This document shows positions 5,501 to 64,000 of a stretch of 64,000 nucleotides of DNA, piece by piece. Where the stretch lies: positions 5,217,169 to 5,281,168 of the forward strand of contig JARUPZ010000004.1 in assembly GCA_031213475.1 (NCBI GenBank), written 5' to 3'. The position numbers and the translations under genes were made by a program. How positions within the stretch are numbered: position 1 is the first letter of the stretch; every line of letters begins with the position of its first letter. Source of the DNA: Nereocystis luetkeana. Taxonomy: Eukaryota > Sar > Phaeophyceae > Laminariales > Laminariaceae. A model generated the notes under the pieces. That model searched no databases. It was not told the origin of the DNA and worked only from the letters and a program-made list of their open reading frames with translations.

Positions 5501-5522
5501 CGATGAGTGAAACGGTTCGTCT

Positions 5523-9935: not shown

Positions 9936-10258
9936 CCGGTCGCCCCGGTGGTTCAAGTGGTTAACCTCGAATTCTACTTGTTTGAGTCCTGGGTTCGAGC
10001 CCTAGGAGGGTCGGACTTTGACTTTATTTGCAAAAATAAAAAAAGGGATTCAATTGTTGAGAGCGCCTTGCAGCGTGGGTAGGCACAATTCGATGCGAGT
10101 CGACGAGGGAAGAAAAGGCTGAAATCTTCTCGCGATAAAAATGAAGGCACGTACCGTAGCGGGAAGGGGGGAGAAGAGCCTGCTATGTGACCCCGGATCT
10201 GAGTTACGAGTTGGAAGGAGAGAGAGAAGAAGATGTGCGAAGATAATGAATGGGATGG

Positions 10259-10294
<36 letters not shown>
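9936..10294 (+). mobile_element. SINE-A copy 1, nested in LINE
   Basis: A full-length SINE of about 359 bp with a tRNA-like head and a 35-nt A tail (10259-10294). The head has TGGTTCAAGTGG (A-box-like) and GGGTTCGAGCCC (B box) inside a T-arm-like stem. It splits the LINE reading frame. Flanking sequences CCAGCGCCATAAT (before) and CCAGCCCCGTAAT (after the A tail) look like an aged target duplication of about 13-17 bp. This is the first of ten copies in the window. Confidence 0.85.
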
Positions 10295-10295
<1 letters not shown>

Positions 10296-42340: not shown

Positions 42341-45300
42341 TGTCTATATATACTCAGCGTCCAGCATCGCAAGTTGACGGTAGTTTTATATGGTTCATGC
42401 AGAAGAAGTTGTTCACAACCTCGTCCCTGGTATCTGTTTAGAGCGTTTATTTTGTATTTGACATAATGTGGATTGAAACAGCGATGGCCGTGACCGCCGT
42501 GGCGAGCAAACCCGACGGCCGCGTGTGTTGTTTCCCCCACGCAAATACTACATATTCGACCAAATTATCTAAAAAAACAGACGGCCACGCAAATGCGATG
42601 TCTGATTTTGAGACAACAATTTTTAAGATTGATGCGCAGTTTCAGTTCACAAAATCACCAACCTCATGATTCCTAGTCGTTCTGGGCTGCCTCGTATGGC
42701 TGTTGCTTGATGTATCCGACGCCATCAAGCACGCACCGCGAGAGAGCCTTGACTGCTGCATATATTGAGCACTTTGGAGTACCTGGAACTATCTCAAGCT
42801 GTTTAGCCCATACGCCAGTTGGGGTTAGCTTTTGAATTTTGTAGCGCGTCTTGCGGTTTTTGACCAAATTCGACCTCACCTACGTTCAGGTGCGACGATC
42901 TTCAAATTATTGGTGAAAGGTAAACGGTTCGGTCGTGACAGAACTTTCGTAAGAGATGGAGGTATCTCAGCATAAGGCGCGACGATGTATGTCCTGGAAG
43001 GCGTAAGGTTCGGAGTGCTCAGCACCATGTCGATACAGCTTACAAAATAAAGACCCACTCCAACGGCTCAAATGCAGGATGTTGTACCATGTCGATCACT
43101 CAGAAACAGCAGACAGGCGAGTCTGTGTCGAACACCCCTCACATTCGTTCTGGTCGACGTGTGCGTCTCAAGCTGATGGTAACGTGGCTGAAACAAAGCG
43201 AAAGCGAGGTCGGGATTGGTCGATAGTGCATGTGTGGTTTACGATGTAATCAAACTCGTAACTCGTATGTTGAGGAAACAATCATTCGAAGGTTCCTTGT
43301 TGGTCTTCCTTACTTCGACGAACCCCACGGTGTGCGAGAGCGTCCACCGGCAAACTAAAAAATTCCGTGAAAGAGCAGTAAGAGTGCCGAACAATCTTCG
43401 CAACAATAATGAGGGTCTATAGAAGCAGGGTTGACTCCTTTCTCCAAATCTTATCGATATAGACGCTGAGAACACTACGTCGAACGAGTTTAAACGGAAC
43501 TCATTTGTCCTCTTGCGAATCCAAAAAATGAAACTATGGATGTCCTTCGAACCCGGTTCTGTTCCGCCACCCAGGTGGGACGCTGAAACATGATGCTCAT
43601 CAAGTTGCTGGCGCCCCTACTACTCGCGGTGGCTACGCATGGTGGGTGCATTTGACTGCATGCCATAACCTGGTGTGGGCTGGAGTTCTGGCGGAGTTGC
43701 GTATCGAGTAACGCACTGACCAAAAAACAGCCAGGTTCTATTTTGTAGAATATGTTGCTCAATTAATTACTGTACGTACATGAATGGTTGTTGTCGTCCT
43801 CTCGCGTGGTGATTAGCGATGTATTTCAGCCGCCGAGAGAGCTAGAGTCTGTAGGAGTAGACAAATCTATCAACTCTCGTAGTTATAAATGCCAGTGATA
43901 TATTTGAAAAGGAATAGAGAAAACTACAGGTTATCACGTATCCTGAGTTCAAAGAGAAACTACGAATTTCAAACGGGACGTGCGAGTGGGTCGGCGGGTA
44001 CTGAGCTGCCAAAATGCCTTGAATCCCAGAGTATTACGTCACTGACCTAACACCCCAGAAGGACGCATCAGGTTGCTACGACTGACTGCAATGAGGTTGT
44101 AATCGCGAGAACGGTCTTCACGTGTGTCTTCGTAATGATTTTGCAAATACAAACATCCGTTTGACCGAAACACAGCTTTGTCTTCTCCAAAAGTGAGCAA
44201 ATATGTATCTTGATTTTGCAATATTAATGGCTGCACTCTCGCGGTTTGAATTTTGTTCTGAATGGGGCGGTGTTGGCGGCAAAAAAAGCAGAACGAGGTG
44301 GTAGAACCCTTGTCAAGACCGTCCGTCGCTTCGACAATTCAACTTACCGTTAACTCGCCCCGCCCCTTCCCGTTGTATTTTACCGTACCGCCTTGTCGAA
44401 TACCTGTGCTCTAGATGCCCCGCCCCACAGTGAACACCTACCCCTGCTGTCCCGGCTGATCGTCGAGACTGCCCGTATCATCACATCCCACTCTTTACGT
44501 TACTCATTATATCCCGTCACAACACCATGAATAGAAACACGTGCTATACCCACCTGGATATTCGGAGGACGCCAGTATAGTTAGTCCTGTGACGGATGCG
44601 GCCGTCCAGACCTGACGAATTCGCTACAAATTTCAAATAATTCGCATACATACATACCAGGTATTGGTTGCCCTCGCGTCGGAATTTGAAAGGCCCATAT
44701 ATATTTTTAACATACTATTTACAATAAGAATCCTGTATAACGCAAGCGCTACCAATAACAAGCTCCCCTAATCACGAATTTAAGTTCTAACTTCGTTGTA
44801 CGAGAGACACCAAAATTTGAAATTCTTACAGTTGAAATAAAAATGCGAATCATACCAAACGGTACCGTCTCGTCCCGTCGTGAATTCATATATTCACCAA
44901 ACTATTGGGTCGATAACCAAAACGACTCAACCGTCCCGTCCCGTCGCGATGAAAGCGATTTATACCGCCCGGACTTATGCTCGAGGTCTGGAATATTTGC
45001 ACCGTAGAAGCAATTCCCGTCGAGAACGTTAACGTCCACTCTTGTCTTGTGTCGACTCCAGTAAACTCGAAGGTTCATGTGTTTTTCTGTTTCATCGCAA
45101 ACTTATGTACTGTTCTCCTCTCGAACGTCGATTCAATAGTCCGACCACAAATAAAATATAATTTTTTCCAGCCATGAGAGCAGGCGTTGATCTTACGCCT
45201 CTGCGGCTAAAATACAGCGCTTGCTGATGCCATGCGAAAATCACGGTCGAAGGCAACTGCTCAAGAAGAGACCGATAGGGCATTGAACGCCATCTCAAGT

Positions 45301-46270
45301 ACGATCCAGTTGAAGTCATTTGCACCTCTTCGGTTATTATGTTCGTTGCCACTTTTACTATGAAATAGCGTGGACTACCTCCCCGCACAGTGGCGAAATA
45401 GGGTATTGCATTTACGCAAAGTCGTTTTAACTTGAGAAAAAAACAAGACGCAGGTCTTGGCCAAGTTAGGATGATCTGTTCGTCAGTCGCGTACGGTATG
45501 TCCTTCTCAAAAAACGACGGGTGAACCATTGAGCAGTAATATCAGAGCGACCACGTGTGCCACGGGGCTGGCATGAATAACGCGCACCGTCCGATTGTTT
45601 TATTGTTCGCCTAATAATGCCTCAACGCATTATGTGGCCGTTGGACACGTTTTGGATGCTTATGTTTTTTTCCCACAGGTCAAAGCCGGTGCCGTTTGGA
45701 TGATTCGTGCGCGCCTGGACTTACGATCGTGTAAGTAACATAATAGGCTTGGTCGGTAAGGTGCATAGCAAACGTGGACACAGGCGGAGGGAGTTAGCGT
45801 TACAACCTTGTCTCTAGGCGTATCTGAAAGCAATGGGGTATTTTGCAACCCAACATATCATCGGACTTGGTGCAGGCAATGCCTGCCTGGTCGGTGAAAA
45901 CCAGACGTGCTCCGTCCCGTCGTTATCCCCACCCCACTAGGCGTGCCTGGAAACTATAAGGCATTCTGCTACCTTTAATCAGCGTCGAGTATTCCAGTAT
46001 CTTGGCAATCACAACGTACGCTGTCTACAAAACACAAGCAGACCGATGAACAGGTAACATGTGTCCCTGGCCGATATGTTGGCCCGTGGATTATACAATC
46101 ACGTGACAACGGTAACCGTGCCGGCTTGTTAAGATATCGTTTGCCGTTCATTAATAGTTATCTCATTCCAATCGAATCTTCGCGCCCTTTCCCTCAGCCC
46201 GAAACATAGTTCCCGAAAATGGGCACCTATGAAGTCTATGTATGCACTAACTTGGTGCTTGTTGATGGCA
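42341..46270. other. Gene-poor stretch upstream of LRR gene
   Basis: Several short open frames (for example 42466-42669 and 43216-43422) show no domain or splice structure that I can support. No SINE-A, LINE or MITE copy was recognised. The last few hundred bases must hold the LRR gene promoter, but no TATA box or other element stands out. Confidence 0.4.
44340..44960 (-). repeat. Dispersed CCGTCCC / CCCGCCCC repeats
   Basis: Scattered units such as CCCCGCCCCTTCCCGTTG (44357), ACCGTCTCGTCCCGTCGTG (44866) and ACCGTCCCGTCCCGTCGCG (44931) resemble the array at 20515-20850. They are spread wider apart and more worn. Confidence 0.45.
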
Positions 46271-46310
46271 GCTCCCGCCTGTAACGAAAGCCTTCGCATT
46301 TATTGCGACC
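46271..46310 (+). promoter_or_regulatory. Possible 5' UTR exon start before the ATG
   Basis: TGTTGATGGCAG just before 46271 would serve as a splice acceptor, followed by a 40-nt leader with an in-frame TAA before ATG. If used, the start codon sits in the second transcribed exon. This is only sequence resemblance. Confidence 0.3.
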
Positions 46311-46414
46311 ATGTCCGGCGACAGGGAGCTTGACATCTGTGCGTTCACAGACGAAGACTTGGACGATCTCGCGGCATGCTTCGACAACGTAGGGCGGGGC
46401 AACATCGAGCACCT
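46311..46414 (+). CDS. LRR gene exon 1 (start exon)
   Basis: 104 nt. Begins ATG TCC GGC; the protein starts MSGDRELDICAFTDEDLDDL and ends ...NIEHL, so the last part already fits the end of an LRR. Donor CCT|GTGAGT, phase 2. The N-terminus is acidic and has no hydrophobic signal. It is the only exon here with an upstream in-frame stop and a plausible start. Confidence 0.7.
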
Positions 46415-49400
46415 GTGAGTAGCGTTACCAGAAGGGCGTAAAACCTGTTTGGTGGCCCCATATGTTGTTTTCGCGGAAACAATTCTGCCATCGTCTGCAT
46501 ATCAATACCCGACATCACGAGCTTGACGTAGGGGTCGGGCCGGGGCCGTTGGATATTTTCATTTGCACTCTGCACATTCACATCCAATTGTTTAGGCTTC
46601 TAACAGTCTCGGCACAAACGTGGAATGAAGATGGGTGCAAGTAGTTGCCTTCGCTGGGTAGAACGTGGAACGTATTGTATTCAAAGCAAATACAAACCTT
46701 CGACAAACGCTTTGGATGGTTCCTTAAAAGCTGCCGTGTTATGTTTCAGTATGTTTCGTTGATATGTGACCCTTACCCATGAATTGGTGCTGGCGACGTC
46801 TCCCGTTCTTGCCGATGTCACGCCGTTCGACCCCGTATTTGGCGTCGGCACCTTAACCCAGGAACCTACGCAGGAATGATCTCGACAACATCCCTCCTGG
46901 TTTCTTCGAGGGCTTCGACGCTCTCACCGACTTGTGAGTGACGCGCGTGCCAAGCACATGCCTGGAGATAGTCGTGTAGAAATCTTGTCTATTTTAAAGT
47001 CTCGGTCCTCATTTCTGTGGACGCTGGACGTTCATAAACTTCCTGTTTCTCCTACGAAGTATATGTTCGGAGGTTTTTAATACAAGACCTACTCGTCTCC
47101 TCAAGAACGCCTCCCGCGTGAAACGTCAGCACCTGCACTGCTGAATCTGATTTGGAAGATGTAGTTTACTGATTGATGGCAGCTATACCATGGGCCACCC
47201 TGTATACACACCTTGGGGGTAATGACCGTAGTTCACTATTGACTCACGGAACCAACGAGGCGTGGGTCCGGAGTAGTGCGCGCAGTGGACACGGCTCGTT
47301 CCTCCGGCGTTCACGTGGTTTACATGTTTCATGGATTCTTCTGGACGAGCGAATCGTTGTATGAATCATACGGTACCCTCTCGCTACCTTAGAATGTGTA
47401 TGTCATTGGTAACCCACGGCGAGTAGCATTCCCAAGGCTGTACGTACAGTAGTCGACAAACCTCCCCCGCCTGTACCCCAACGATGATGCAGGGACATGG
47501 ACCTAAACGAGTTGACTCCGCAAGCCGGAACCTTCCGGGGTCTCACCGCTTTGGATTCACTGTGAGCGTGGTAGCTTTAGTGCTAGCTACTAATAGATAC
47601 CTGGTAGACTTCATGTCGTTTCGTGGTCTAGTTGTGCACGTAAACGTATGAGTCAGGCGTATGTCTGGGCAACGAGCTCGGTTGACGTGTGTGGAAGTGC
47701 TTGCCTGCTGGAGAGTAAAAGCTGCTGTGATGTACTACCTCACTATCACAGTAGGCGATAGACAGTGTGCACGATGAACGCATTCGTGGTATTTGCATCC
47801 AAGCGCCTCTCTGTACGTGTTACGGAAAACTCTTGCAACGCCCAGTTGATATGGGCTGCGGCAGATGAGGTTTTGAATTTGCCTGGAACGTCGTACCAAC
47901 GCTCTGTCGCCATCTGTCGCCCCTGTCGTTTCCTTCCGGCCTGACCCCAACTCTGGTGTGCCGATTGCATTCCATAGAATCCTTACTCGGAACGGCATCA
48001 CCAGCTTGCCATCGGGTTTCTTCGAGGGTATGGATTCTCTACGCCACCTGTAAGCGAGCCGTTGCATGCACTATAGAGGTCGAGCACTTGCTCTACAAAT
48101 GCTACTTTTCGTGCCTAAACTTGACGGTACGTTCATTCCGCTCTTTCGCCTGCTGTGGTGCTAATCGGGCCGCCTTCTCGGCTTGAGCTCGTAAAATTGC
48201 TCGGATGTATATATCACATTTCAGCGGCACTGAATATATGGCCTTGACAGTTTTTGGTTACACGATCGGGTTAAGACGTTTCTCGCCAATGAAATGACTG
48301 TTGAATATGGGAAGTGGCAAAGAGGCATCTCTATCCTGATTTGAATTGCTTAACGTTGCATGTGAGCGCCGCACGTTTGCGCCTTTGTCCTCAACCGTCT
48401 ACTGGGGTATTAACAATTTGCAGGGTCCCCGACGGTTCCTCGAGGGTGGGTGCATGCTCTGACCGTGCTGTTACCAACATTATTGGTCCTGCCGGTGTCT
48501 TATCACAGCAAACTGATTGGCAGGTATCACTCTCACAAGCACATATAACCGCTTTGTGGGGGGTCGAACGAAGGTTTCAGCCCCTAAAAGGCTGCGTTTG
48601 AAGCGTCCCCTAAGCCGATCATCTCTGTGTGTCGTCCGTATTTATGAGCCGATCGTCACGTTTTGCCGGCAGTGCGCTCCATGGTATAATATTCGATCAA
48701 CAGTTTATCAGACCGATACATTATGACTGACTGCGCCCGCCGCCTTTACAAAAGGCACACCTCTAAATCAAGTGTGCTATGATTTCCGCTTCCATGACGC
48801 GCCAGGGACCTTTTCAGGAACAACATCGAACTCGCGGCCGGCGACTTCATGAATGCCACATCCTTGGAAGTACTGTGAGAGTAATACCACCAACATTTTC
48901 GATTTGTACGTACGACAATAGGGTTTCGTAGAGTGCTTTCAAAAGATTGGTTGCATGCTCGCCTTCGCTAAAGCCTTTCAGAAATGCAGCCCCGTTATAG
49001 AGATCCACCACTCGAGTTATAAGTAAGTTGTTCCCCCAATGGGACACGTGGTTATTTACGGCTTAAAAATACGTAAAGAAATATTAACTTAACCACGAGG
49101 AATACGGTGGAACTTAGGTGTAAATATGGCTGAATTCAGTAAACTTGGCCTCTGCATTCAAGGAACGAATTGCTACGGCCGAACATAACCCGTCGTTATC
49201 AAATAAAAGCGTGCCTGGGCCAACCTAGGTACGAACCTTGTTACCACGCTGCGTTACAGCGGTGTCACCCCGTTTCCAACCGTATGGTGATGCGCTGCAA
49301 CAGACTCATGAGGGACACCATCGCCGGTAGTCTTCCCTCTGGCGTCTTCGAGGGTTTGGACTCCTTAACAACCCTGTGAGTAAGCCCACCGTTTGGACCT

Positions 49401-52400
49401 GTGCCAGAAGGAAGAACCAGAGCTCTGAGTTTTTCTCACACGGTAATGACGTCAACGGTGCGCCTTACACTGGCGTACCTGAGAAGGCGTTCTACTATAG
49501 AGGTATTCTCTCTAGGGAACAAAGCTTTCTGAGTCACCACGGCATCCCTACCGGGCGCCAGTTGAAGGAGGCACACTACCCATATCGTGGGGGTATCCGT
49601 CTTATTTTGAAGTGCTTGGCCCACACACTTCAAAGCTCAGTCGTATCGTTAGAATCAGCATGGCAACTTGGATGGACGTAAGATCCGGAGAAACCGCTAT
49701 CGTGGAACGCCTCAAAGCGAGAGTGCCTATCGAGTGGGCGATATGTGTTGGGTTCGGTTTCTCTGCGCGCTGACAAATCATACCGCGAGCCGGTCGTCGT
49801 GGTCAGCGCGGCCCAACAATGACAGGTTCATTTGGTCGCTGGGCTGGCTCACTCAGCACCGCCATGCATTCAATAGTCTGCGATCTATGCAACATGCCTG
49901 CATGCGTTCTCTGTCGTTTTTACTGCGGTCTCCATCGAAGCTGTGGAGAAAGGCGCGGGTTTTCAAACTGTCTAGCGAAGATCCTTCCCAAGCGCGAACC
50001 CATTGAACGACGAACCTCTCCTGTTTTCGTGTGCAAGGACCATCAAAAGCGTTGACGTCTGATGCGACTGTGTCAGCGATTAACACCAGGCATTTTCGGG
50101 CATCTGTTCTCCGTCTCGTGCGTACTTACCGACCAGGGATATAAACGAAAACCGGTTGACAGCGTTGCCGTTTGGCGTGTTCGATGGTCTGCCTGACCTG
50201 CAAGAGCTGTGAGTGTGCCTTGATAGTGCGCAAGCTATGCAGGGATTGGGTTAAGATTATAAAAGCCTTTGGATTGATACAGCGTAAATGACAGGTTGTC
50301 CCGTGAGCAGGTACGTGTACATGCATTGCAAGAAACTCAGTCCAACTGATACGAGCACAGCTCACCCTACTGCAAGTAGTCTCCAGGGAGCACCAAGTGA
50401 ATCATTGTTGCGGGCGACTTGTCTTTCACGCATGTCTAATCGTCACGTTGGGCGCCCTCGTACAGCCATACACATTGGTCCTCGGTTTCCACTGCCGCGT
50501 AAGTGTCCATGTTCATTCATCGTGATAGGACAAAGAGGCAGGCGATGAAATTGGTAATGTTATTGGTCGCGCTGGTAACACGGGGGCAGGATCAATTTGG
50601 TCTCTCAAATGTACCGAAACATAAGACACGCTTTCCCTCTTAAAAATTGTTTCCAGAGTCAAATACTTCAAGGATGAAATAAAACTATTTTTTTTCTTGA
50701 CGGTCGAATTAGCTCATGCGGTACGTCAAACCAGTACTAACAACTCCCGTTTTCTAACGTCTATTGGTCGTTTATCTCCTTACGTCCGACCAGTGTTCTG
50801 TCGAATAACCTCATTGCCGCCTTGCCCGACGGAATCTTCGGCGATCTGCCTAGTCTTCGAGAACTGTGAGTGCGCCCTGGTGATGATGCGTTCACCTGGC
50901 AGGGACCGAAAACTAGAATAGCGAGGTATGACCAGGTATATATTACGGATTCGCAAAGGATGCAATTGTTGGCCAGTACACCAGTGGCCATGCGGACTTT
51001 CGTTGTAGCCGATGTGCCACAAGCCCAACCGCCCCGGCCCTGCAAGGTTACATTCACCCATTATCGATTTGATATCGCGGGTTGACTGGTTGCGGTTATC
51101 CTCCATCACCCCCCCCCACTCTGCTTCCTGTCGAGTAGAAAGCGCGCGTTTGGGCTACAGACGCGTTGGACGGTAGCGATGGCTCAATCCCGCAAATAGT
51201 TTTTTTCTGAATGACGGGGTTACTCATCCCAAAAATATTCAGAATACCAGTTATGTTTCGCTTTTTTTTTTTTTTTGTATCCTGGGCGATGCGATTATTC
51301 ATCGGGACGCCGTTGAAATTTACTCAGGTCAGTTGTCGGGTGAAACATGGAGCTCCCTGAGAGAGGAGCCCCCCAAAAAAACAAAACTGCGAAACTCTAC
51401 CTTAGAACGTTTCTCAGTAATCCATCTCAATTGGACGATTTCCACAAGGCTGGTGCGCGTGCAAGCCGTGTCATAATGTGCTCAAATGTGAAGTGTTACC
51501 TGATCAACGAGGCATGCATACGGGGACCAGAAGCAAAAACCCATGTTAATATTGCAACACCTACCTCGTTGCCACACGCCACACGTTGCTGTCTTTCGGA
51601 CAGATTTGCTCCCTTGCTCCCGGTGTTAATCTTTCGTGTTCGTATGGCCTCACCATTACTTCCCCAAGCATGAAACCGCAAACGCCCAGCAGACCACACG
51701 GCACCCGTGCCGTGCTGGACGTTCCTCGTGTGGACAAGACGCGAGCGGTTTGCGGGGATCATAGTTCATTCAAAACAGGATGGAACAGCAACTCGGGCTT
51801 CCGTCGACAGTGTCGGTCGTACCTGAGTGACGGTCGCCCTCCTGTTTCTATGGGCTACGCCTGTGTTCCTCTTCTTGCAAGGGAGTTAATAGACAAGCAA
51901 TGTCCGTGCGATTAGCTCGCTCTTAAACGGGCTTTTGATGAGTTCTGAGGACGGTCTTTTTTAAAATATAGTACCAATGCCCAAATATCATTTTCGAGTG
52001 CTGAGCGTAGCGCGGCATGTGTTTGGCGATACCTGGTACGTGTTCTTAGGTCGAGGCTCACATGCATTGTTTTTTTTGCTCTTCATCGCATCGTGTACAT
52101 TGCAAGAGTTTGTGGGTCCTGTGTGAGACTGATAATAGTCGGTAAAATCACTCTGCATCGCTCAGATACCATATTCAACCAGTGGAAATTGTTATTCCTT
52201 CTTGTCGTCTCTTGCCTCATGACAAACCAGGAACGTTAGGTCCAACAATTTCGTGAACTGGACAGCCGGAATATTGGATGGTTCGACTTCCCTCACGCAT
52301 CTGTGAGTGACGCGATGTATCACTACGTACATTCCCCAACTTTATATGCACAAAAACATTCATCTCGCGGAACTGTGCATGGCAAGAGAGATTCTAAAGT

Positions 52401-55400
52401 GGCACGAACGAATTACGGGCGGCCGCGCTATAAACGATAAAGTGGCGATACGGCTCACCGCAGTTCCTCGCCCACGTGAAGGCATGCGCTAAGGCGGCAT
52501 AAGCATAACACCGAGATGCACGTTGACCAACTTCGAAGACCTCCATAAGCGTTTTTCAAGTGTCTGGTTGGGTTCGTAATATCGCGAGGAAACAGCAGTG
52601 TTTACAGTTACTTTGCGTTTTGACCATGCGTGGAAGACACATTAAACCTGGATGGACCCTATCAAGCGGGACGTCGGCCATTTACGACACATGCTGCAAG
52701 TGACACCTTCTGTTTTCAAATAGCATGGGAAATCATGTGAGCTCATCACTGAGATTATTGATTGGGTTGGAAGAAAAGTTGCTATAGTCGACACAAACAA
52801 GCCCATCAGGCCCAGGTATATCGCATGGTCAAACCATCGATTGGTTGGCCTGTTTCCGCTCGTTCCGTTACAGGCGGCTTGGCGACATGCGGTTCCTAAA
52901 TCTGGAAGCAGGGACCTTCGACGGAACGCCAAATTTGGAGTTCTTGTGAGTGGCGCGAACAACTATGGGTGAAAAAAATAACACGAGCAGTTCCTGTTAT
53001 CCGCGCCAAGCCAGAAATAAATCTTGCCTCCCGTAGTCGGTGCCCGGTTGAGTATATTCGAGTCAAGCAAGGACGTGTTTGCCCGTATGATATCTCCTCT
53101 ACTGGCGATGACCCGTTCAACGGGGCAGACAGATGAACAAAAACCTTTTGCGAGAACGTACGAGAACCAATGCTGGCACGAGCCTAGCGAAATCCACTAA
53201 CCTTGGTCGTTGGACTGTAGAAGATTGGTGCAACCCTTGGCATCGACACATATCTCTCCGAATCCATTTGAAGTGGAAACCACAGTACCAGGTACGTAAT
53301 ATTCGTCTGCTGTAGAGTGCTATTACGGGGGACCATAGTAGTGTAATGTGCTATTACACGCGACCATGATAAATAGGACCAATCAGTGTTAGTAAACATA
53401 TTTAAATATTAGTGTTTTTGTGGGTACCATGGGTCTTATTCATTATGGTCGCCCGTACTAGCGTTCAAGGGTACGGACGTTCGGCGTCGCTGTTCCACGA
53501 CAAGTGACAAGACGTTGTGTGTGAGAGTTGTTCGGTACTACTGTCGTCTGCGTTGTCGATTTCCTGTCATCGCACCCAGGGATTTCTCTTTCAACTCCGG
53601 GGCTATTCTTCCGGCAGGAATCTTCGATCCCATCGCCGGATCTCTCAAAACATTGTGAGTAATGCCACAAGCCACCAACCCAGTTCACTCAAGGTAATGC
53701 TATCATGTTTCGAGTGGAAAGTGCAGGATGGTTCCCTGGCGCTAGTGTTAAGACGTTCGTTTGGAATTCGTATTGTACCGGGCCGAGATACGGAGCACCA
53801 CGCAATATTTCCTTTTCTAGTCACAGATGCGGTCATATGTGGTCGTTGGCGTTAGGCCTTAGTAGACGGTTTCATTTTTACGTTTGTACGCCGGGAAGTC
53901 ACACGACGCTTTTTTTTTACGCAGCGCTGTGCATGCTTGAGCTGTACAATAACGTCGCCTCACCAATACGTTATACGTTGGGAGCTGCCACATATTGAAA
54001 AATGCTGTATTGTACCAGGTACTACACACGACTATTGAATGACTGCAGCTTTCAACCCAGTGACCGCAGAAGGATCGTTGCCCGAGAAAAGTTTACTTCT
54101 CATGTTATTGGAGAAGTGTCGCGAGCGAGTCGGAAGAAAATGGCCGAGCATAATGATGGTTGTGTTTTCACGTAAGCTTTTTTATCTGACATCATGCATG
54201 TGGTCACAACACCCGCGGTAAAAAACAACGCATCTCGTTGGGAGGAAAAACACCAGTACGATACAATGCGCACTTGGGTATGGCAGCTGTCAGCAAGAAG
54301 ACGGTACTATCGAGCTGTGGTGTTCCGTCCCGTATTACCCGAACCCAAATATACTAGGGCCACATAGATTGGAAATTTGTACACTATATACAACAAAAAA
54401 TAGGAACGGAAAACGCGAAGAGATACCTTTAAAATAATATATAGAAGAGAACTAGAAGAGGCGACAACGAAGCACAGGGCGCAACCCGAGTCCCGGTGAC
54501 TAGATTCCTGTTTGCCGGTACGATCAGTCCAATGGTATCTTCAGCTCATTGATCAACATCGGTTGTCACATGAAGATGAAATGGGAGGCAAGGAAGTAAA
54601 GAGAGGGTAACGACAAATAATCGATAAAAACAAATTTGGGCAGTCTTAGGTCCAGCCGGTGAATCATTCACGACAAAACAGACCCAGGGAGGACAGAGAC
54701 AGACATACCAACGGGGGGCTATGAAACACACATCGTCAAGAAAATTGAAGAATAAAGATAATCAGCAAATGGTTCTGAAGGGTTACACAGTTCGTATCTC
54801 CGACGCCGAATGGTAGATTACGAGCGGGAGAGCAATACCGACTTATCAGCGGATCCGCCATCCCAATATCGAAAACATTAAGTTCTAAAAACATGTAAAC
54901 AGGGATTGTAACCTGTCCTTACTAGGAAGGAGTCACTGGGTGTTCCAACTAGAAGAATGTCCATAGCCAGGTTCCGGAGGGTGTCATTACTTTTTTAAGC
55001 TAGCCTACCTACTGTCGCTATGCCTCATACAACGTGGCTCCTCTTTCCTATCATGCATCGAAGGTATACCATTGAGAGGTTTGGACAGGGGCCATACCTT
55101 GAGCTCATAACCGTTACTATTTCGCCTTGTATCTGGCGAAGTGAGTACACATACATATAAAACAACCCCGAAAAACGTGATTTGCCCACTGATATGATGG
55201 GCAATGATTGCCAAACTTGCGTACCATATCAATACACTCATCTGTCGATGGACGAGCACTAACGGCAGGATACTGATTTCAAAATCACGAATGCTCGTAA
55301 TCACACGGTCGGGGTAAAACCGACGTGCCTGTACCCATGATCTCAATACAAAAGGTGGCCTGCACCATCCCTACGACTAGACGTTGCAGTGGCGCATGCG

Positions 55401-58400
55401 TCTTGGCTTCCCGATCGGTAGGCGATCGGTGCCGCAGTCGAGGTGGCAGTTTTGGAACCCGACACTCGTATTGTGGGATTCCGTGTGTATCGAAGGCGTT
55501 CTCTGATAGGCGTAACACATGTTTGTCGGGGACAAAACTTTCTGAGCCACCACGTCACCCTTACCGAGCGCTAGCTGAAGGAGGATCGGTGCCGAGACCG
55601 TGTGGACATGTTTAATATTTTGAAGTGCGTGCCCCACATACTCCAAACATCAGTCGTATCGGTTTGTTTATCGCTATTCAACTTCCCCACTACAACATGG
55701 GGGGATTTCAGGGAGTCCGAACAATTAGGCGAACCTGTATCGTAGAACACCTCATACCATAGTATGCATTGCACGCCTTTTCGGACAGGTTTCTCGGCCA
55801 ACGCATGCTATATATCTCCCACCTCGAAGTCGGTTGCTGGAGGAGTTGGAGAGCTTTCCACAGCGAGGGGTTGTCGTGTAGGACGAGAAATGTAGTCGAT
55901 ACGCCTACCTCACAGGTCTGTGAGCAAGCGCGGAAGTGCCCTCGTACCAAGATATCTCAACGCATTTCGGATGGAGAAAGTGTATCGAACTATATGTATT
56001 TTTTTATTCATTAGGATGCCAACGCCGATTAAATCCCACACTCCAGTTGCCCCGGCCACCTTCGATGTGTCGCGTCGGTGCCGCACAGGGATATCTCCAG
56101 AAGTGACTTAACCACGTTTCCCGCCGACAACCTGGCCGACTTCGTTTCGCTCCAGACGCTGTGAGTGGTATAGTTGCATACTGGCACCAGGTATCTGGGA
56201 TATGTTTTGTTGTACTTACCTCATGACTTGTCATAAAACGAATTATGACTTCGTTCTGCGAGATCAGTTTGTTCTTCTGTTCCCATGATGTGCGCACGGG
56301 AGCAGTACAATGGATGCACCAAGAGTGAAATGTTTTCCCATCAACGCCACCAACACTTTTCATCCTTGTTTCCATTGCCGATGCCTCTGTGTCCACGGTA
56401 CAGCGATATCAGCGGTAATCTTCTGATGCTCGAGGCCGGCTACTTCGACGGCCCAATCTCCTTGGAAGATCTGTGAGGGGGAAGATTTATCTTGCGAGAG
56501 GATGAATGAAGCCCCAGCAGGGTTGTTGTAGCCGTACAAAGTAGAAAAACCATGCAATCTGCATCGTACGATTACCTGTAATTTGCCGCGTACGCAATGT
56601 CTATTCTAAGATATTGACATCTGTTTTTTTTTCTGTTTGCCGTACGATATTCCGCGAAGCCACAGCTGACGCTTTGTGCCTTTTTTGTTGGCGGCATTGA
56701 TGGGGAAATGCAAACAAGTTTTAAGAAATCTTTCACGTTTGCAGCCCATGCGCTATTCAGTGGTATGGATGAACGACCATGCACGCATCTTGACGCGTTG
56801 CGCTACACCACATACTTACATGACTAGCATGCCTTCGAAAACCGGCGCACGCATGGCTTGCGCATCGCACCAATCGTACCCCCCCCCTGGTGTCGCTCAT
56901 CGATGCTTGGTGTCGACATGGTAATAACTCGAACAGAACAATATCCATCACCGGCAGTGACTTTGCTTCGGATCTCTTCGAGGGGTTGGCGTCACTTCGA
57001 GCACTGTGAGTGAGCCCGTAGATATTGAATGGATAGTGGCTTCGTCGACAACGAGTGCGCCAAACATACAGCCCACTGGGTGCAGAGTTGCAGATACCGG
57101 CTAATGCGTACAGACGAAGTTGGGTTGCGTACACCTCGCACTGTCTGCCGATGTCGAGCCCGACGCCCTGTGCAGCTATTATTGCGTTTTCACACGTTCG
57201 CAATTTTGGCAGGGAATCCCGTTGGATTGTTGTCGGTTTGTCCCTTTCGAATCGACAAACGACTGGAACAAGAACCCCCCTCGTCTGTTGCGTACTGGGA
57301 GTGTTGCCTGTAGTATAGTCTACGCTTGTCGATCGTCGCTGCCGTGGGAGGTTAGTGGTGCTTCTGTCGTTCTGAAATGTTGTCTGTCACCATTTTAGCC
57401 ATAGCACGACGAGCGTTTCCCCAGGTAGGTGCCGATGGGAACCGATAAATTTTGAGAATATACCGAGTGAGCATTTAGTACGTACACCTCGTCGCCCGCA
57501 AACCTTTTCTTTTCCCATGTCGTGCATACGCGCGACTCAGTCACGCCATGATTGGCGACTCCCTTTTCGGCAAGCAAAGTTTTTCCTTTGTTCTACCTCG
57601 TGTGTCGGTAGAACAGCAACGGTGCAACCGGCAGACCCTTGTAGCTCCAGCCGACGCCCTCCACCGTGCCATTCAATGTGACGATTTACCGGCTGTACGA
57701 ATATATGGTTGGTTTTGAGATCTCGCATTTCAGAAATGATGTTTATATCTGTTTACACTTCACCCCAGCTCACCAACATACGGTCGATCGTTTGTGTTTA
57801 TACGGACCGCAGAAACTCGTGGTTTCCTCCACACGGTTTGCGCTACTAGAGACGCGGTGGTAAACAAAATTCATTTTTTCTCATGTGTCAGACGTGCGTT
57901 TCGCCATGTGCCCGGTATTGTGATAATTCCAACGATATTTTCCTTTTTCTACTGAAACTCCAACAGCACTATATTTGTTCTTTGACAGAGTCCGGAATAT
58001 GCACGACGCGCTCGACTTATCAAGTGTCGTGGTATATTTGTTTCTCACACGCAATATCTGCTTTCATACTCGCCCATTCTGAGATAGACGATGGGATTGT
58101 CCCATAATTTACACCCAGCCATACCACCCGTCGAACCGCTAACAAAATATCTGGCATACAATCTTTGTGGATTCCCAACTACACTTACGGACAAATGTCT
58201 ACGTACGTTCCAAGTCACGCTCACCCTTTGTGTTTTGCTGTCTCCTTTTGGCCGCCCCTTGCTTCGTCACGTACCAGGAGTATATCAGGACCTGTACCCA
58301 CCTTGCCCCCAGGCGCCTTCGACGATTTGACATCTCTTACATCACTGTGAGTGATGCAATTGAATCACTATAGATTCTTCAGTGGAGCAGCTTCCAATCC

Positions 58401-61400
58401 CAGTATCAGCATTGAGCGAGCACCATGGCAGGTTGTAACGCAAATAAATGGGGATGTGTGTCTGCCGCCGCAGAGAGGTACACGGGAGTGGGGACGAAGA
58501 GCCTCAATGTACTCCCTTCGAAGTGAAGCGACAAACCTTTGTGGTGCATCCGTGTTTCGTCCGGTAATAATTTGGTGCATGCTATTATTATCGAACGCTA
58601 AAATTCCTGCCCCGTCCACGTAGGAGTTTCGTTGAGCGTCTGTGAGATGTTGAGCAAAATGTATTATTTAGCAATATTCATAGCCGAGCAGAGAACTGAC
58701 CGTCTTGTTCGATGTTTTGGTACTTCAGAATAATTCCCCGCGCGCTTTGGTTCCTACCGGTAAACCGAAGAGTGAAGAGGGCTTCCGACATGACCGCCAT
58801 CGTTCTCATTCTGTGACATTTCGCTTCGTATCAGGTCACTGTATCTTCAATCATTGACTACGCTGGAAGTGGGAGCGTTCCAGGCCCTGCCGACACTGCA
58901 ATTCCTGTGAGAGCAACCCTAACGCGGTATCTCCACTCGACCATACCCTCGCTGTTTTTGGCTCGGTAAGGTTTCATCACGCTGGTCGTCAATTTGGAAT
59001 CTGAGGATGGTTCGAAATATTTCAGATTGAGGCCCTCGTGTATAAAATAAGTATAATGAACTCATGTACTCTATAGAGTATACAGGGTGATTGTGCCAAG
59101 TGTCAACGCTGGTCCCGCGCCTTGGCGTCGCATGCCGCTATGCAAACCGAATCGAGTCGAGTCTGGCATCTACTGAAGTATGGTTTTCCAAAACGAACGA
59201 TGTCGAGCGTTCCGATTACACCAATTAAGAATCACGTCCATCGACTTTGCCCATATCGTCCGCACAACAAGCCTCCCACGCTGTCCTCTGATTCTGTTTT
59301 CATGATTTCACGAGCACAAATCCTGTACGGTCTATGCCATTGGACAGGATGCTCGTATTTCATCACCATCGATAAACCACACGTATATGTCCCCAGACAG
59401 AATATACCAACTGCAATATAAACCCGCACACATGTGCTAAGGTATCGCTTTCGTGCTGGGCATTAGGTACAGGTATCGAGTCCTCGCCATGGATATACGT
59501 GTAGGATGGATTTTAGTGAGAGCTCGACCAACGTAAATTTCACCATCCAGTAGAGATCATCGGCAATTCTAAGAACACCTCATATTCCTGACATTTCGCG
59601 GCTTCGATTTATCTTATTCAGCTGTTTTTTTCGAGGCATGGCTGATGTCTTGTATTTGTACATCCCGCTTATGTTACACATCACCGCAGCTCATGGCAAT
59701 ATATGTTATCGAGCTTAGACATACTCGACCGTACACCAGAACGTTTTTCAATCCGAGACAAGAAGATCAACGTCGATCTACCGTGTATATATTTCTAAAA
59801 ACGTAGACGAACGTTGTGCCGAATACCCAGCGCCCAGGTACGCTCGTACTCTAGAATAAAACTCGATAGTGGTATACGGTAGAGGCTGAACCATGCGACT
59901 GATGTATCACGTTGAATCGGCGTCACTTGCGACGCATGCCATGAAGGGGATGTGATTGCTGCTTTGTGTACGCCCAATGAAGTTTCTCGGTCAGCTTTCG
60001 GACAGTACGATCGCATACACTATCCATGCTGTGGAGTCTTGCATTTGATTTGAACTTGTAATACCCAACATCAAGTGGGCATCTACGGGAATAGGGAGAA
60101 TGACACCGTTGGACTTCGTGCATCGCCCATTTTATCAAGTCGCTGTGCTCCCGCTTCAAGACGGTGATAACAAACGCCTGTAATTCCTGCTGCCAGTGGA
60201 ATAAGTGAGACTGCCATTTTCGGTACGCGCGCTGAAGCTACAAACCAAACCTGCAACCGACTATGGGAGGGACATTTTTCAGGGTGATGTCGTTTAGTGT
60301 AGATGACCGAAGTGTGCATTAAAATGAAACTAAAGAGGGCCTTCTACCTTGTCGTGTTTCTGATCGACGATGTTGCGTGCCGCCTATCCAGGGATATTTC
60401 AGGAAGCCAACTGCCAACTTTGTCAGCCGGTGTCTTCAACGGCTTGTCGTCTCTTGCATCGTTGTGAGTAATGCAATACATATAGTCTTCGATTCAGGAC
60501 AATTTCCCCGTAATCGCGGTATCGCGCGGAAGGGCTTGCGCCCTGGCGGGCTCTAGCGTCAAACAGAAATGGGTTCGCTGAAAAGCGTCGGGACGACGTG
60601 GCTCCGTGATATATTCTTGAATTATAGAAATACGTCTTTGGATCAATATTGATTAATCAAACGCGTGACGTATATAGGGTGACATGTGTATATGGGATAT
60701 AGGCCAGCATGTGTGCCTCGGATCCTGAATGTCTGACCCGCCGTCCGCCTATGTGTTCGGTCGATCTCTTCGTGGCTGCAAATATGGGATGTCAATTATT
60801 ATTCGGGTTGCGACACTTTCAAGATGGAACTGACTAACTGTTTTACCGGGTTTTTTTTGTGCTTGCAGAGTTTTGAACACACCGATTTTCCGCATGCTGT
60901 GCTTTCAATGGGTTAGCCCCACGTGAAGGGGGGATCTGACGTAAATGTCATCGTTGTGTTGACTTCCTCGCCCGTTTCGTACCAGGTCTCTGTCGCTTGG
61001 TTTGAATCGGCTGGAATCAGGAACGTTCCAGGCCCTACCGACATTGAAAACCCTGTGAGATCAAACATTATGCAATATCCACTCCCATCCTCCACCCCCG
61101 GATCATTGACTGGGTAACGTCTTTCCTACAGCCGATGTCTTTAGAGACTTGAAACAGTTTACTGCTCCTCGGAATGCCCGCTCTGTTGGTGTGTAGAGTA
61201 CACACGAACCTTCCAAACATCTCGACCGGGTAAACAAGCCAAGGTGGGACACCGGTTCCGAGAATTGGCGTCTCATACGTCTGTTCAAGCGAAGCCGCGT
61301 CGAGTGGGCATCTAGTGCGGGCCAGACGATACAACACTGGCCAGAGATTCAACTGCACCTGGTACTCGATTTCACTCCAGGATATACTCTACCTGGTATG

Positions 61401-64000
61401 GCCTCGCAAGCCGCTCACGGTGTTGTCTTAACCCACAGGCTGGAAAAGAATAGTGTTTGTGCCATTCGATGATGTACAAATTATAACTTCATCATCAATC
61501 ACTCACACGTGAATATTTCCAGACACAAGAAAAAAAAGCCTTAAAAGGAACGAAAACATCGAATTTGTATCTGGCATCATCAGGTGTCGATGTCGCGGCA
61601 TCGCGAAGGTATTGTTTTTAGAATTCGACCAACATCAATGCCACCAACACACTGCGCGTTTGCGGAACCTCTAGAACTTCCATCTGGTGATTTTTCTGCA
61701 GCTATTAAAACTGCGGTATGATTCTTTGAACATATTTTTTCGATCTGAACGATGGGTGCTCTCTGCTGCGGGTTTTTTTGCATATTTTCTTCACTGCTAC
61801 CTTTCACAGTTTTTACTGCAGCTATCAAAACTGCGGCATGATTTTTCGAACATAATATTTTGATCTGAACGATGGGTGCTCTCTGCTGCGGGTTTTTGCA
61901 TATTTTCCTCTCTGCTACCTTTCACTATCCACTGCAGCTTATTGGATCCTGTGTTTCCGAGACCTCACAAGCGAACCGCCAACCGAAACTCAGTAAAGCC
62001 GAGTGCACATCACGACTCAATCATGAACGCCAAACCAGATCATTATGGTAGTTCACACATGCGTTGGTGCCATCTACTCAGTACTTCGCTATGCCTGTCC
62101 GCTAGACAGAGTTCTGCTCGGATTGTCGAGTACAGCCACCGGGTTGTGGAGGCTGCACTTTGCGACGGTTGCTTCTACGTGTTTGAGGGCTAAACCTGCA
62201 TTTCACGACCTCAACGTGTCTCAGGAAGGGTTGCCATCACCACAGTATTGTTGGTATTGGACGAGATTGCCGCTTTGTGTGCGATGAGCGACGGTGCTTG
62301 TCCAGCCTGCGACCGAGAACCTTGCATATAGCTTACATGAGCGCGTTTTCACTTGGGTTTTAACGGGGCAAAACGTCGTCTAATTGACAGCGTACAGTTC
62401 TGATATTGTTATACTCCATCGATCGTCCGATCAATCCATTCACCGTCTTCCATCTTGTTGACTACCATAGAATATCCCCGCAATTCCGGCCGCCAGGATC
62501 CCTTTCGGTATATAGATGAGCCCATCGTTTTCTGTCTGTAGATGCATGCCGATGTTGAGATAGAGCGCAAGGCCGATGCAAAGAGGATCACGAGCTGCTG
62601 TGAGGGAGTGCTCGTGGGTCAAACGCAATTCTGAGTAGACAGGAACCAGCTGAACGTGCCAACGCGGCGTATCAGTACAGCCATCTTGGTTTGGGTTCCG
62701 ATAAAGAATCTAGACGGTAACGCTAACCGGACACCCGCGGGTACGAACTTGCGTGGTGCATCAACCCGTCTATTTTTCCTCGTCATCTTATTTCCACGAG
62801 TGAACATCGAGTGGACATTATACGTTGACGGTATCGTTGAAGGTCTCCTATTTCACTCGGGGGTTGACCCTCAGTTCGTTGACTACTGTAAATCAACCGA
62901 TGTTCGAGGGCATGCCTAGAAAGCTTCTTACAGGATCGACAGCAATAGCCTCGAACACCGGCACATGCGTTGAGTCCGGAGATGTGTATTATACGGAATT
63001 CCTGTTGTAGAGTGCATGCGGCCCTCTTTTTTTCAGATGGATACGGTCGCGTCCTTGTAGGGATTACTCGACTTTCTGCTTGACTTTATGAGCAAGTGTT
63101 TGAATGATATCGGGTAATCACGGTTGGGCCTACGTGGTGTTTTCGGTATATGCTTCGACTGGCTTGGTTATACTCGTCATACTGTTTCAATGGGTGGGCA
63201 CACTACACTTGAATGGAGCCGTTGCCGTCATGGAGCCGCTGGTTGCATCAATTCAAGGCCCCTAATTTGACAATTACTGCGACAGAAAGCCTAAACGAGG
63301 GCACGGTGTCTTTTGGAAACATTGTGAGAGGAACTAAGCATTCTCTTCAGTCAGAAAACGTGCATCGTTTGTATCGGGTTATGTCTACAGGGGTTGTGCC
63401 CTTTGTAGAGAAGAAACGGTATTTTTTTCCGACGACGGCCGACCGTCGATATAAAACATAGTTGTATATAAAATATTAAAAGGGAAACCGTACCAAGCTC
63501 CTAAACAGTCATCATCGCGTTCGTGTTGCGTGCAGCGCTAAGGTCCTATTCTTTCTATTTGTTGTACGCCCGCGGAAGGTAGCAGTCGGAGCTGCCACCG
63601 ATTGACTTCGATAAGCAATACTGTTGTTTGTTCATATTCCGTCCGACGTATGCCCATGACCGTAGCATTGAGCGCCGCCTGCCCGTCGATGACTTCTGTT
63701 GACCATCACTTGCATAAGAATACATCAAGGATGTGTTGGGAAATGGGTTGACTGCCTTGGCTAAAGGGGCATTCGACGCTTTGGCGTCTCTTACAACGAT
63801 TTAGATGATGCGATAGGAACGATATGGATTGTGCGCTAATACCTTCAAACCTCAATATCGTTGATGAGCGTGCACCAATGCAGGTTCTATTAATAGCACG
63901 AATCGATAGTTTCGCCCGCTGTAGATGATTGTGGTGGCGAGGCGAGGTGGCGTAGCCGCTTGCTCGTATTTGGAACTGAACTTGCCGTACGAGCTAGGTA
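46311..64000 (+). CDS. LRR gene, one repeat per exon (5' part, runs off window)
   Basis: Spliced gene with a start exon (46311-46414) and seventeen LRR exons ending at 46933, 47561, 48049, 48874, 49375, 50208, 50865, 52302, 52945, 53654, 56160, 56472, 57005, 58346, 58906, 60463 and 61054. Together they give 1313 nt, about 437 residues, in one frame. Each LRR exon is 69, 72 or 75 nt, begins with one base and ends with two bases of a split Leu codon (phase 2-2), and has AG/GT borders, mostly GTGAGT. The repeat is L-x-L-x-x-N-x-L-x-x-(L/I)-P-x-G-x-F-x-G-L-x-x-L-x-x-L. LRR proteins bind ligands; no signal peptide is visible, so a cytosolic role is likely. The plan matches brown-algal LRR-ROCO receptor candidates. 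The downstream domain is outside the window, so the family name is an inference. Confidence 0.8.
46862..46933 (+). CDS. LRR gene exon 2
   Basis: 72 nt, acceptor CCCAG, donor CTT|GTGAGT. Reads (L)NLRRNDLDNIPPGFFEGF + DALTDL, a canonical repeat with the Asn ladder position and PxGFFEG. Confidence 0.85.
47493..47561 (+). CDS. LRR gene exon 3
   Basis: 69 nt, acceptor TGCAG, donor ACT|GTGAGC. Reads (L)DMDLNELTPQAGTF + RGLTALDSL. One residue shorter than the canonical repeat, with the loss between LTP and AG. Confidence 0.8.
47978..48049 (+). CDS. LRR gene exon 4
   Basis: 72 nt, acceptor CATAG, donor CCT|GTAAGC (the only GTAAG donor). Reads (L)ILTRNGITSLPSGFFEG + MDSLRHL. Confidence 0.82.
48424..48475 (+). 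pseudogene. Decayed LRR exon in intron 4
   Basis: After a good acceptor (TTTGCAG) the sequence GTCCCCGACGGTTCCTCGAG resembles the PDGFFEG part of an LRR exon, and CTCTGACCGTGCTGTT resembles its end. Frameshifts, a stop and loss of the GTGAGT donor show that it is dead. Confidence 0.45.
48806..48874 (+). CDS. LRR gene exon 5
   Basis: 69 nt from acceptor GCCAG. Reads (L)DLFRNNIELAAGDF + MNATSLEVL, donor ACT|GTGAGA. A second acceptor 12 nt inside (TTCAG) would also keep the frame but cut the repeat, so the longer form is preferred. Confidence 0.8.
49304..49375 (+). CDS. LRR gene exon 6
   Basis: 72 nt, acceptor AACAG, donor CCT|GTGAGT. Reads (L)LMRDTIAGSLPSGVF + EGLDSLTTL. Confidence 0.82.
49480..49650 (+). 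repeat. Duplicated intron block, copy 1 (intron 6)
   Basis: About 170 bp with GAAGGCGTTCT, CTTTCTGAG-CACCACG, CCCT-ACCG-GCGC-AG-TGAAGGAGG and TTTTGAAGTGC-TG-CCCACA-ACT-CAAA in the same order and orientation as 55490-55660 in intron 11. It lies 490-660 bp before the next LRR exon in both cases. Confidence 0.75.
50137..50208 (+). CDS. LRR gene exon 7
   Basis: 72 nt, acceptor ACCAG, donor GCT|GTGAGT. Reads (L)DINENRLTALPFGVF + DGLPDLQEL, the most canonical repeat in the gene. Confidence 0.88.
50794..50865 (+). CDS. LRR gene exon 8
   Basis: 72 nt, acceptor ACCAG, donor ACT|GTGAGT. Reads (L)VLSNNLIAALPDGIF + GDLPSLREL. Closely related to exon 7. Confidence 0.88.
51195..51380 (+). repeat. Interspersed repeat R1, copy 3, in intron 8
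   Basis: A worn copy sharing TTTTTTTCTGAATGACGGGG, CCCAAAAATATT and GTCAGTTGTCGGGTGAAACA + TGGAGC with 18985 (reverse) and 35080. It is one of the few dispersed repeats inside the LRR gene. Confidence 0.45.
52231..52302 (+). CDS. LRR gene exon 9
   Basis: 72 nt, acceptor ACCAG, donor TCT|GTGAGT. Reads (L)NVRSNNFVNWTAGIL + DGSTSLTHL; the Pro before x-G is replaced by Thr. The downstream flank (GTGAGTGACGCGATGTATCA) resembles those of exons 15 and 17. Confidence 0.8.
52874..52945 (+). CDS. LRR gene exon 10
   Basis: 72 nt, acceptor TACAG, donor CTT|GTGAGT. Reads (L)RLGDMRFLNLEAGTF + DGTPNLEFL; the Asn of the LxxN box is Asp here. Confidence 0.8.
53323..53458. mobile_element. MITE-2 copy in intron 10, with extra end fragment
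   Basis: A full MITE-2 (53354-53458) between TA dinucleotides, TTACACGCGACCATGATAAA at the left and, reversed, GTACGGGCGACCATAATGAA at the right. It is preceded by a 31-bp partial left end (TTACGGGGGACCATAGTAGT...) also after TA. It lies about 120 bp before exon 11, inside the intron only. Confidence 0.75.
53580..53654 (+). CDS. LRR gene exon 11
   Basis: 75 nt, the only 25-codon repeat, acceptor CCCAG, donor ATT|GTGAGT. Reads (L)DFSFNSGAILPAGIF + DPIAGSLKTL; one residue is inserted before SLKTL. Confidence 0.8.
55490..55660 (+). repeat. Duplicated intron block, copy 2 (intron 11)
   Basis: Homologous to 49480-49650: GAAGGCGTTCTCTGATAGGC, AAACTTTCTGAGCCACCACG, TAGCTGAAGGAGG and TTTTGAAGTGCGTGCCCACA-type blocks occur in the same order. 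Both blocks end at a TCAGTCGTATCG stretch. It lies about 430 bp before exon 12. Confidence 0.75.
55880..55920 (+). pseudogene. Possible LRR exon stub in intron 11
   Basis: CTACCTCACAGGTCTGTGAGC looks like the last few codons of an LRR exon (YLTGL) with its donor, but the rest of the repeat is absent. Weak. Confidence 0.25.
56089..56160 (+). CDS. LRR gene exon 12
   Basis: 72 nt, acceptor CACAG, donor GCT|GTGAGT. Reads (L)DISRSDLTTFPADNL + ADFVSLQTL; the Asn ladder residue is Ser and G-x-F is D-N-L. Confidence 0.8.
56404..56472 (+). CDS. LRR gene exon 13
   Basis: 69 nt, acceptor TACAG, donor TCT|GTGAGG. Reads (L)DISGNLLMLEAGYF + DGPISLEDL. The shortest intron of the gene (243 bp) precedes it. 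Confidence 0.8.
56937..57005 (+). CDS. LRR gene exon 14
   Basis: 69 nt, acceptor AACAG, donor ACT|GTGAGT. Reads (L)TISITGSDFASDLF + EGLASLRAL; the first half is diverged, the FEGLxSLxxL end is clear. Confidence 0.75.
58278..58346 (+). CDS. LRR gene exon 15
   Basis: 69 nt, acceptor ACCAG, donor ACT|GTGAGT. Reads (L)SISGPVPTLPPGAF + DDLTSLTSL. First member of a duplicated exon pair (15-16 and 17-18). Confidence 0.82.
58835..58906 (+). CDS. LRR gene exon 16
   Basis: 72 nt, acceptor ATCAG, donor CCT|GTGAGA. Reads (L)SLYLQSLTTLEVGAF + QALPTLQFL. Very like exon 18, including the CGTTCCAGGCCCT stretch and the GTGAGA donor. Confidence 0.82.
60392..60463 (+). CDS. LRR gene exon 17
   Basis: 72 nt, acceptor TCCAG, donor GTT|GTGAGT. 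Reads (L)DISGSQLPTLSAGVF + NGLSSLASL. Paralogue of exon 15; the intron start GTGAGTAATGCAAT matches GTGAGTGATGCAAT there. Confidence 0.82.
60986..61054 (+). CDS. LRR gene exon 18
   Basis: 69 nt, acceptor ACCAG, donor CCT|GTGAGA. Reads (L)SLSLGLNRLESGTF + QALPTLKTL. Paralogue of exon 16. It is the last LRR exon in the window with both splice sites intact. Confidence 0.82.
61439..61471 (+). pseudogene. LRR exon stub with stop
   Basis: Behind a strong acceptor (TTAACCCACAG) the frame reads (L)LEKNSVCAIR then TGA, like the first third of an LRR followed by loss of the rest. No donor follows. Confidence 0.4.
61691..61926 (+). repeat. 120-bp tandem duplication
   Basis: Two units, 61691-61810 and 61811-61926. 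Both hold CTGCAGCTAT-AAAACTGCGG and GATCTGAACGATGGGTGCTC + TCTGCTGCGGG. They differ by a few substitutions and a T-run length change, so the duplication is fairly recent. It lies in the intron after exon 18. Confidence 0.85.
62864..62929 (+). pseudogene. Decayed LRR exon, splice sites lost
   Basis: Reads LTLSSLTTVNQPMFEGMPRK + LL, which follows the LRR plan (L-x-L...L-x-x-x...MFEGMP-x-L) but has no AG before it and no GT donor after it. Confidence 0.45.
62934..62973 (+). pseudogene. LRR exon stub with stop
   Basis: After acceptor TTACAG the frame reads (L)IDSNSLEHRHMR then TGA, like the first half of an LRR (L-x-I-x-S-N-x-L). The second half is gone. Confidence 0.4.
63730..63804 (+). pseudogene. 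LRR exon with both splice sites mutated
   Basis: Reads DVLGNGLTALAKGAF + DALASLTTI followed by TAG. The acceptor reads ATCAAG where other exons have CAGG, and the donor reads ATTTAGATGATGCG where exon 15 has ACTGTGAGTGATGCA. So the coding part is intact but both borders have changed. If it were somehow used, TAG would end the protein here. Confidence 0.6.

Follow-up and report, generated by a model that had tools for sequence, protein, structure and literature searches.

An array of single-LRR exons in the kelp Nereocystis luetkeana continues into cysteine-rich and GDPH segments and probably encodes an extracellular protein

The founding study on the brown-algal LRR-ROCO genes is said to be that of Zambounis et al., dating from 2012. 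A later paper (Teng et al. 2024, PMC11378527) describes, in its relevant sections, brown-algal ROCO genes with 72-bp, phase-2 exons that each encode one leucine-rich repeat (LRR), together with splice variants. The same sections mention 15 non-ROCO shuffled-LRR sequences in Saccharina japonica, most of which carry LRR motifs only, and cite the same intron phase for gonadotrophin receptors. Comparable exons are reported in passages of two further papers: the LRR exon arrays of Tetrahymena consist of 90-bp, phase-2 units (PMC6564038), and in rice LRR receptor kinases the introns split the same Leu of the xxLxLxx motif in phase 2 (PMC3050792). In the literature consulted, exon shuffling in brown algae comes up in connection with intracellular ROCO and NB-TPR genes. 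A kelp study, in the sections available, ties ROCO loci to growth variation (PMC12913910), so that an immune role should be regarded as a hypothesis even for the ROCO genes.

The locus described here lies in a window of 64,000 nucleotides (the whole stretch of DNA analysed, C4:5217169-5281168 of the 465 Mb assembly), and the 59 kb that follow were also examined. We consider it likely, with a probability of roughly 0.75, that the locus holds the greater part of a gene whose product is an extracellular, cysteine-capped LRR protein with a GDPH tail rather than a ROCO receptor. The exon array is real and its format is already published. Like the brown-algal LRR-ROCO genes, as the sections cited above portray them, it shows one LRR per exon, a 72-bp unit, phase 2 and array growth by exon duplication; this one-LRR-per-exon, phase-2 format here serves a different protein. 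In contrast to those genes, no ROC was seen, and a Cys N-cap, Cys-rich/EGF-like segments and a GDPH segment are present instead; moreover, seven of the 22 LRR exons measure 69 or 75 nt, the other 15 being 72 nt long, and all 22 are in phase 2-2. With the non-ROCO genes of Saccharina japonica, in that partial account, the locus shares shuffled LRR exons outside ROCO; the present analysis adds the segments downstream and a family of related genes. The Tetrahymena arrays, as excerpted, are likewise tandem and composed of fixed-size LRR exons with phase-2 introns, but their units are of 90 bp and their host is a ciliate. On similarly partial accounts, the rice LRR kinases and the gonadotrophin receptors have the phase-2 split Leu and short one-LRR exons in common with the present gene, and the rice proteins differ in their kinase C terminus. 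The combination of LRR, Cys and GDPH segments was not found described in the literature searched, although the founding study of 2012 may describe one. Gonadotrophin receptors, for their part, have a seven-helix C terminus.

Within the window, 17 LRR exons were delineated at 46862-61054 from splice sites, frame and repeat motif in a screen of both strands, all of them on the plus strand (ten of 72 nt, six of 69 nt and one of 75 nt). Their borders are predicted from sequence, and the phases, downstream domains and paralogs are evident at that level. LRR exons 1 (46862..46933), 2 (47493..47561) and 3 (47978..48049) were located by weight matrix and exon check, and each has a paralog at 83% identity. 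The same two procedures placed exons 4 (48806..48874, with the weakest matrix score), 5 (49304..49375), 6 (50137..50208), 7 (50794..50865), 8 (52231..52302), 9 (52874..52945), 11 (56089..56160), 12 (56404..56472), 13 (56937..57005), 14 (58278..58346) and 15 (58835..58906). Exon 10 (53580..53654), the 75-nt exon, was missed by the weight matrix and placed by the exon check, whilst exons 16 (60392..60463) and 17 (60986..61054) come from the exon check and pairwise comparison. Exons 14/15 and 16/17 resemble a duplicated pair: exon 14 is the nearest relative of exon 16 and exon 15 that of exon 17, these being the two closest pairs, with 73% identity over a 117-nt alignment around exons 15 and 17. 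Pfam assigns the LRR exons of the window to LRR_8 (5e-72).

The initial annotation had described one LRR per exon with uniform phase 2-2 and a split leucine codon, and this description is borne out: all 17 exons of the window are in phase 2-2, and Leu is encoded at all 17 neighbouring junctions (N-cap exon included). The donors read GTGAG in all but one of 18 cases, the remaining one being GTAAG. Its further proposal, that exons could be exchanged without breaking the frame, holds at the level of the junctions. Among the 276 ordered pairs of donors and acceptors from the N-cap, LRR and cap exons, the frame is kept throughout, 272 pairs giving Leu and four giving Phe. Were any one of the 23 introns located directly after the N-cap and LRR exons retained, it would add Leu and then an immediate stop, a property that follows from phase 2 and the GTRAG donor and requires no special design; unspliced transcripts would encode correspondingly shortened solenoids. 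The mean intron length of the gene model (910 nt, n=28 introns) falls between the averages given in the pertinent section of PMC4421812 for Ectocarpus (703 bp) and Saccharina (1,057 bp). Like the assembly size of 465 Mb and the resemblance to published 72-bp, phase-2 exons, this is compatible with a brown-algal host.

The array was compared with chance expectation in several ways. A loose motif-and-splice screen of positions 46001-64000 returned 24 candidates, alternative starts of one exon being counted separately, versus a mean of 1.62 in 50 first-order shuffles; candidates of 72 nt with a GTGAG donor in the same interval numbered 8, versus a mean of 0.0 in 50 such shuffles. A first, too narrow pattern matched once, and a stricter pattern caught four exons, with none elsewhere on either strand and none in 200 shuffles. 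In a weight matrix built from nine exons, the weakest exon (exon 4) scored 11.9, under two minus-strand chance matches (13.4 and 12.7); since exon 10 was missed by the matrix as well, the case for any single weak exon depends on its position within the array. The strongest control is the out-of-sample one, in which a profile of the 17 exons matched five unseen exons past the window at E 4.8e-5 to 1.5e-12, the best match of the same profile in the window outside the gene being at E 0.43.

These five further LRR exons (C4:5281479-5281550, 5282186-5282257, 5282919-5282990, 5284166-5284237 and 5284858-5284929) extend the array past position 64000 and bring it to 22; all are 72 nt long and in phase 2-2. 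In the model they are followed by a short LRR end-cap exon of 39 nt (DLIRNDLQCLPA, C4:5285602-5285640) and four Cys exons, namely one with a GC-AG donor (C4:5286124-5286176), one that is EGF-like by eye (CPEDPVCAADGAVCECQPGASGYSC, C4:5287019-5287096), a third (C4:5289416-5289475) and a fourth (C4:5290490-5290588). The last exon, of about 0.9 kb (C4:5290974-5291872), ends in a stop; its product begins GDPHMTGFRGQKFDFTG and carries the GDPH domain of about 298 residues. The cap, Cys and last exons were chosen by eye, and their phases chain unbroken. Together with two exons upstream of the N-cap, the full model comprises 31 exons and 996 residues. Cysteines before, in and after the LRRs number 4, 0 and 21, respectively (counts that depend on the gene model), and thus flank the LRR block without entering it, as in extracellular Cys-capped LRR proteins. 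This pattern, the Cys-rich tail and a candidate signal peptide point to secretion. On the parts scanned, Pfam recognized LRRs only; for the GDPH domain, searches of Pfam and NCBIfam with a limit of E 1 came up empty, and a PDB search with a limit of E 10 returned nothing relevant. The von Willebrand type D profile was not matched by the C-terminal part, for which Pfam listed 0 families at E 1 or below, and the GDPH motif is presumably the sole feature in common with that domain. The best PDB chains for the LRRs are extracellular (acid labile subunit, LRRTM, Toll-like, LRRC15 and LGR4). Intracellular SHOC-2 is likewise among the PDB relatives listed, so that the repeat type is no proof of location; the PDB likeness reflects repeat type, not descent.

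At the 5' end, positions 46311-46414 had been annotated as a start exon. The exon itself stands, but it is probably internal and its border differs. DNA homology to a paralog on the minus strand of the same contig (83% over 98 bases) begins at 46323, with the AG preceding GGAGCTTGAC, and not at the ATG at 46311. Because the homology sets in at a splice acceptor, past the supposed ATG, the N-cap exon is best read as 46325..46414 (plus strand, 90 nt, two Cys, phase 2-2). Upstream of it lies an N-terminal Cys exon (QSRCRLDDSCAPGLTI, 45679..45730, plus strand, phase 1-2), which has good splice sites, adds CRLDDSC in its frame and is conserved in the paralog: window positions 45675-45737 share 87% identity with C4:5184114-5184176(-), a stretch shortly before the N-cap exon of the paralog. 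The weakest part of the model is the candidate first exon, which is signal-peptide-like (MMLIKLLAPLLLAVATH, 43590..43641, plus strand) and ends in phase 1. It heads the five rows (four distinct exons) kept by a donor filter from 34, the reverse-strand control giving one, and a genome search of the 5' region found no homology for it. Candidates for a signal-peptide exon spliced directly to the N-cap exon were dropped once the extra Cys exon appeared.

Homology searches of the genome suggest that a large family lies behind the gene. The GDPH exon has 123 genome matches, some of which are pieces of one copy. Besides its own copy, 26 relatives are at least 54% identical over residues 1-297 or 1-298 and contain no stops, a few of the 27 full-length rows resembling duplicate contigs or copies. 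Two GDPH paralogs flank the gene on the same contig, C4:5162361(-) at 79% and C4:5466187(+) at 74% identity. The former belongs to a copy running from 5184176 to 5162361 on the minus strand, in which DNA and protein homology locates the upstream Cys exon (5184114), the N-cap exon (5183265), LRR1 (5181834), LRR2 (5181177), LRR3 (5180699) and the GDPH exon, in the same order and on the same strand; these matches are confined to the exons and no more than 28 flanking bases. LRR exons 4-7, used as query, gave no paralog match among the 40 of 143 candidates scored, a search crowded by a dispersed repeat. A 239-aa LRR query had 12 genome matches, of which 10 were at its own locus, two elsewhere (30-34% identity) and none in the paralogs, which implies that most paralog LRR exons are unseen. 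In the 3 kb before the GDPH exon at C4:5466187(+), two of the four Cys exons occur in order (69.2 and 67.7% identity), and model exons 24 (the one with the GC-AG donor) and 26 were not found in that stretch. An N-cap match 33 kb upstream of this GDPH exon (43%, E 1.2e-4) is paired with it by nearness only. Genome-wide, the N-cap exon has 27 protein-level matches, own copy included; eight of them contain a stop, and nine (again with the own copy) lie within C4 4.90-5.58 Mb. No relatives were found among viral contigs and genome contigs, a search from which records of the same genome were possibly excluded. More distant clusters of GDPH-domain exons, roughly 34-41% identical and stop-free over the matched stretch, occur at C4:7.02-7.68 Mb, at about 2.5 Mb on C28 and at about 7.4-7.6 Mb on C15.

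The initial annotation had read the locus as a ROCO or NB-ARC gene and had named an unrelated downstream domain as the finding that would speak against this. An LRR-ROCO GTPase, that is, an intracellular receptor with shuffling LRR exons, would account for the resemblance of most of the exons to the 72-bp, phase-2 ROCO exons described in sections of PMC11378527. Past position 64000, however, the gene runs on into Cys-rich exons and the GDPH domain, a C terminus of another kind on which Pfam returned nothing, COR included, and the ROCO part of the proposal is not sustained. Nor does any of the 47 Roc matches in the genome lie within 2 Mb: the nearest is about 2 Mb off, three are on C4, and many may be ordinary small GTPases. 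Exons of the present type were found at E 0.01 in none of 42 Roc stretches (30 around the matches and twelve 10-kb stretches upstream), a test that is blind to ROCO genes whose LRR exons are unlike the profile or farther off. The ROCO reading is largely refuted, and we consider it very improbable for this gene.

Two other alternatives leave the extracellular LRR region in place. The locus could be a decaying copy that yields no working protein, as might be argued from the relic exon described below, from the existence of paralogs and from the fact that the locus is known here from DNA alone. Against such decay, reading frame and phase are intact throughout the 22 LRR exons and the cap, Cys and GDPH exons, and conservation with the paralog tracks the exons. 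In each of the two duplicate pairs, silent differences also exceed replacement ones (pS 0.59 / pN 0.25 and 0.32 / 0.25, or 0.54 / 0.34 and 0.42 / 0.38 with the alternative, first gap placement), which at 22 codons each is weak evidence; we judge a defunct copy to be quite improbable. It is likewise unlikely that the gene encodes a transmembrane receptor whose membrane anchor and signalling tail are supplied by further exons downstream of the GDPH exon. A donor-like GTAAGT just before the stop of the last exon, at 74697 in continued window numbering, makes a further exon, even a membrane anchor, possible; yet an in-frame stop follows it directly, and inspection short of a systematic search identified no such exon.

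In the preferred reading, the extracellular cysteine-capped protein would consist, in order, of a putative signal peptide, the cysteine N-cap, 22 LRRs with one per exon, the short LRR end cap, the cysteine-rich/EGF-like segment and the GDPH domain. Outside the cell, the inner face of the solenoid would be exposed for ligand binding, and the cysteine caps and GDPH domain may fix the solenoid to the wall or the cell surface. Since all LRR exons are in phase 2, the frame would survive exchange or skipping, and whole repeats could be gained or lost by unequal exchange or skipping with the frame intact. The exon border is the second Leu of LxxLxLxxN, and the residues facing the inner surface are assigned from LRR folds; of the variable residues on each inner-face strand, two would therefore come from one exon and three from the exon that follows, and a new exon neighbour could create a new composite strand. 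Column entropies gave no evidence of greater variability on the inner face. We infer a possible role in recognition or adhesion, and possible use of exon skipping. If the extracellular reading is correct, the same exon format also builds an extracellular protein family, whose diversification would take effect at the point of contact with pathogens, mates or wall polymers, and the cluster on C4, with its nine of 27 N-cap matches, would be a site for direct tests of exon gain, loss and skipping. Much more tentatively, a secreted family with interchangeable single-LRR exons and one Cys/GDPH tail might constitute a repertoire for recognition outside the cell, with splicing or evolutionary exon exchange as the source of its diversity, in parallel to and independently of the ROCO receptors.

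Both working and dead exons had also been reported at the locus. One clear relic is confirmed at 63729..63797 (plus strand, nhmmer E 2.3e-5), in which both splice dinucleotides, read by eye, are lost; the others are weak or indistinguishable from chance, the profile's next matches in the window being one within the N-cap exon (E 0.14), one at 63296-63330 (E 0.26) and one with E 0.43. Growth by two-exon units is clear only for exons 14/15 and 16/17 and was rejected as a general rule, since the lag-2 signal (p 0.03 for the 17 exons) has p 0.059 over all 22 exons and p 0.36 when exons 1-13 are taken by themselves. A 170-nt match between 49483-49648 and 55492-55661 had suggested that a block of exons around exon 5 was duplicated; this was also rejected, because 35 of the 42 rows of a genome search are copies of that stretch (one being the window's second copy); the two intronic segments represent a genome-dispersed repeat.

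As to the surroundings, retroelements lie upstream of the gene, as indicated by reverse-transcriptase ORFs at window positions 10203-12749 and 4838-5506, both on the plus strand (Pfam RVT_1, 1.2e-35 and 7.4e-12, respectively). Rfam and tRNA scans of the window found none, Pfam on 10 upstream ORFs gave no match, and of the 62 ORFs listed at 61-64 kb, the 10 submitted to Pfam gave no match above the cut-off, one DUF (E 0.038) falling below it. The DNA that separates the upstream Cys exon from the N-cap exon holds a short dispersed repeat at positions 45856-45935 (43 of 46 search rows). In the intron that follows LRR exon 17 there is a duplication of about 130 nt at 61691-61939, in two adjacent copies of 87% identity.
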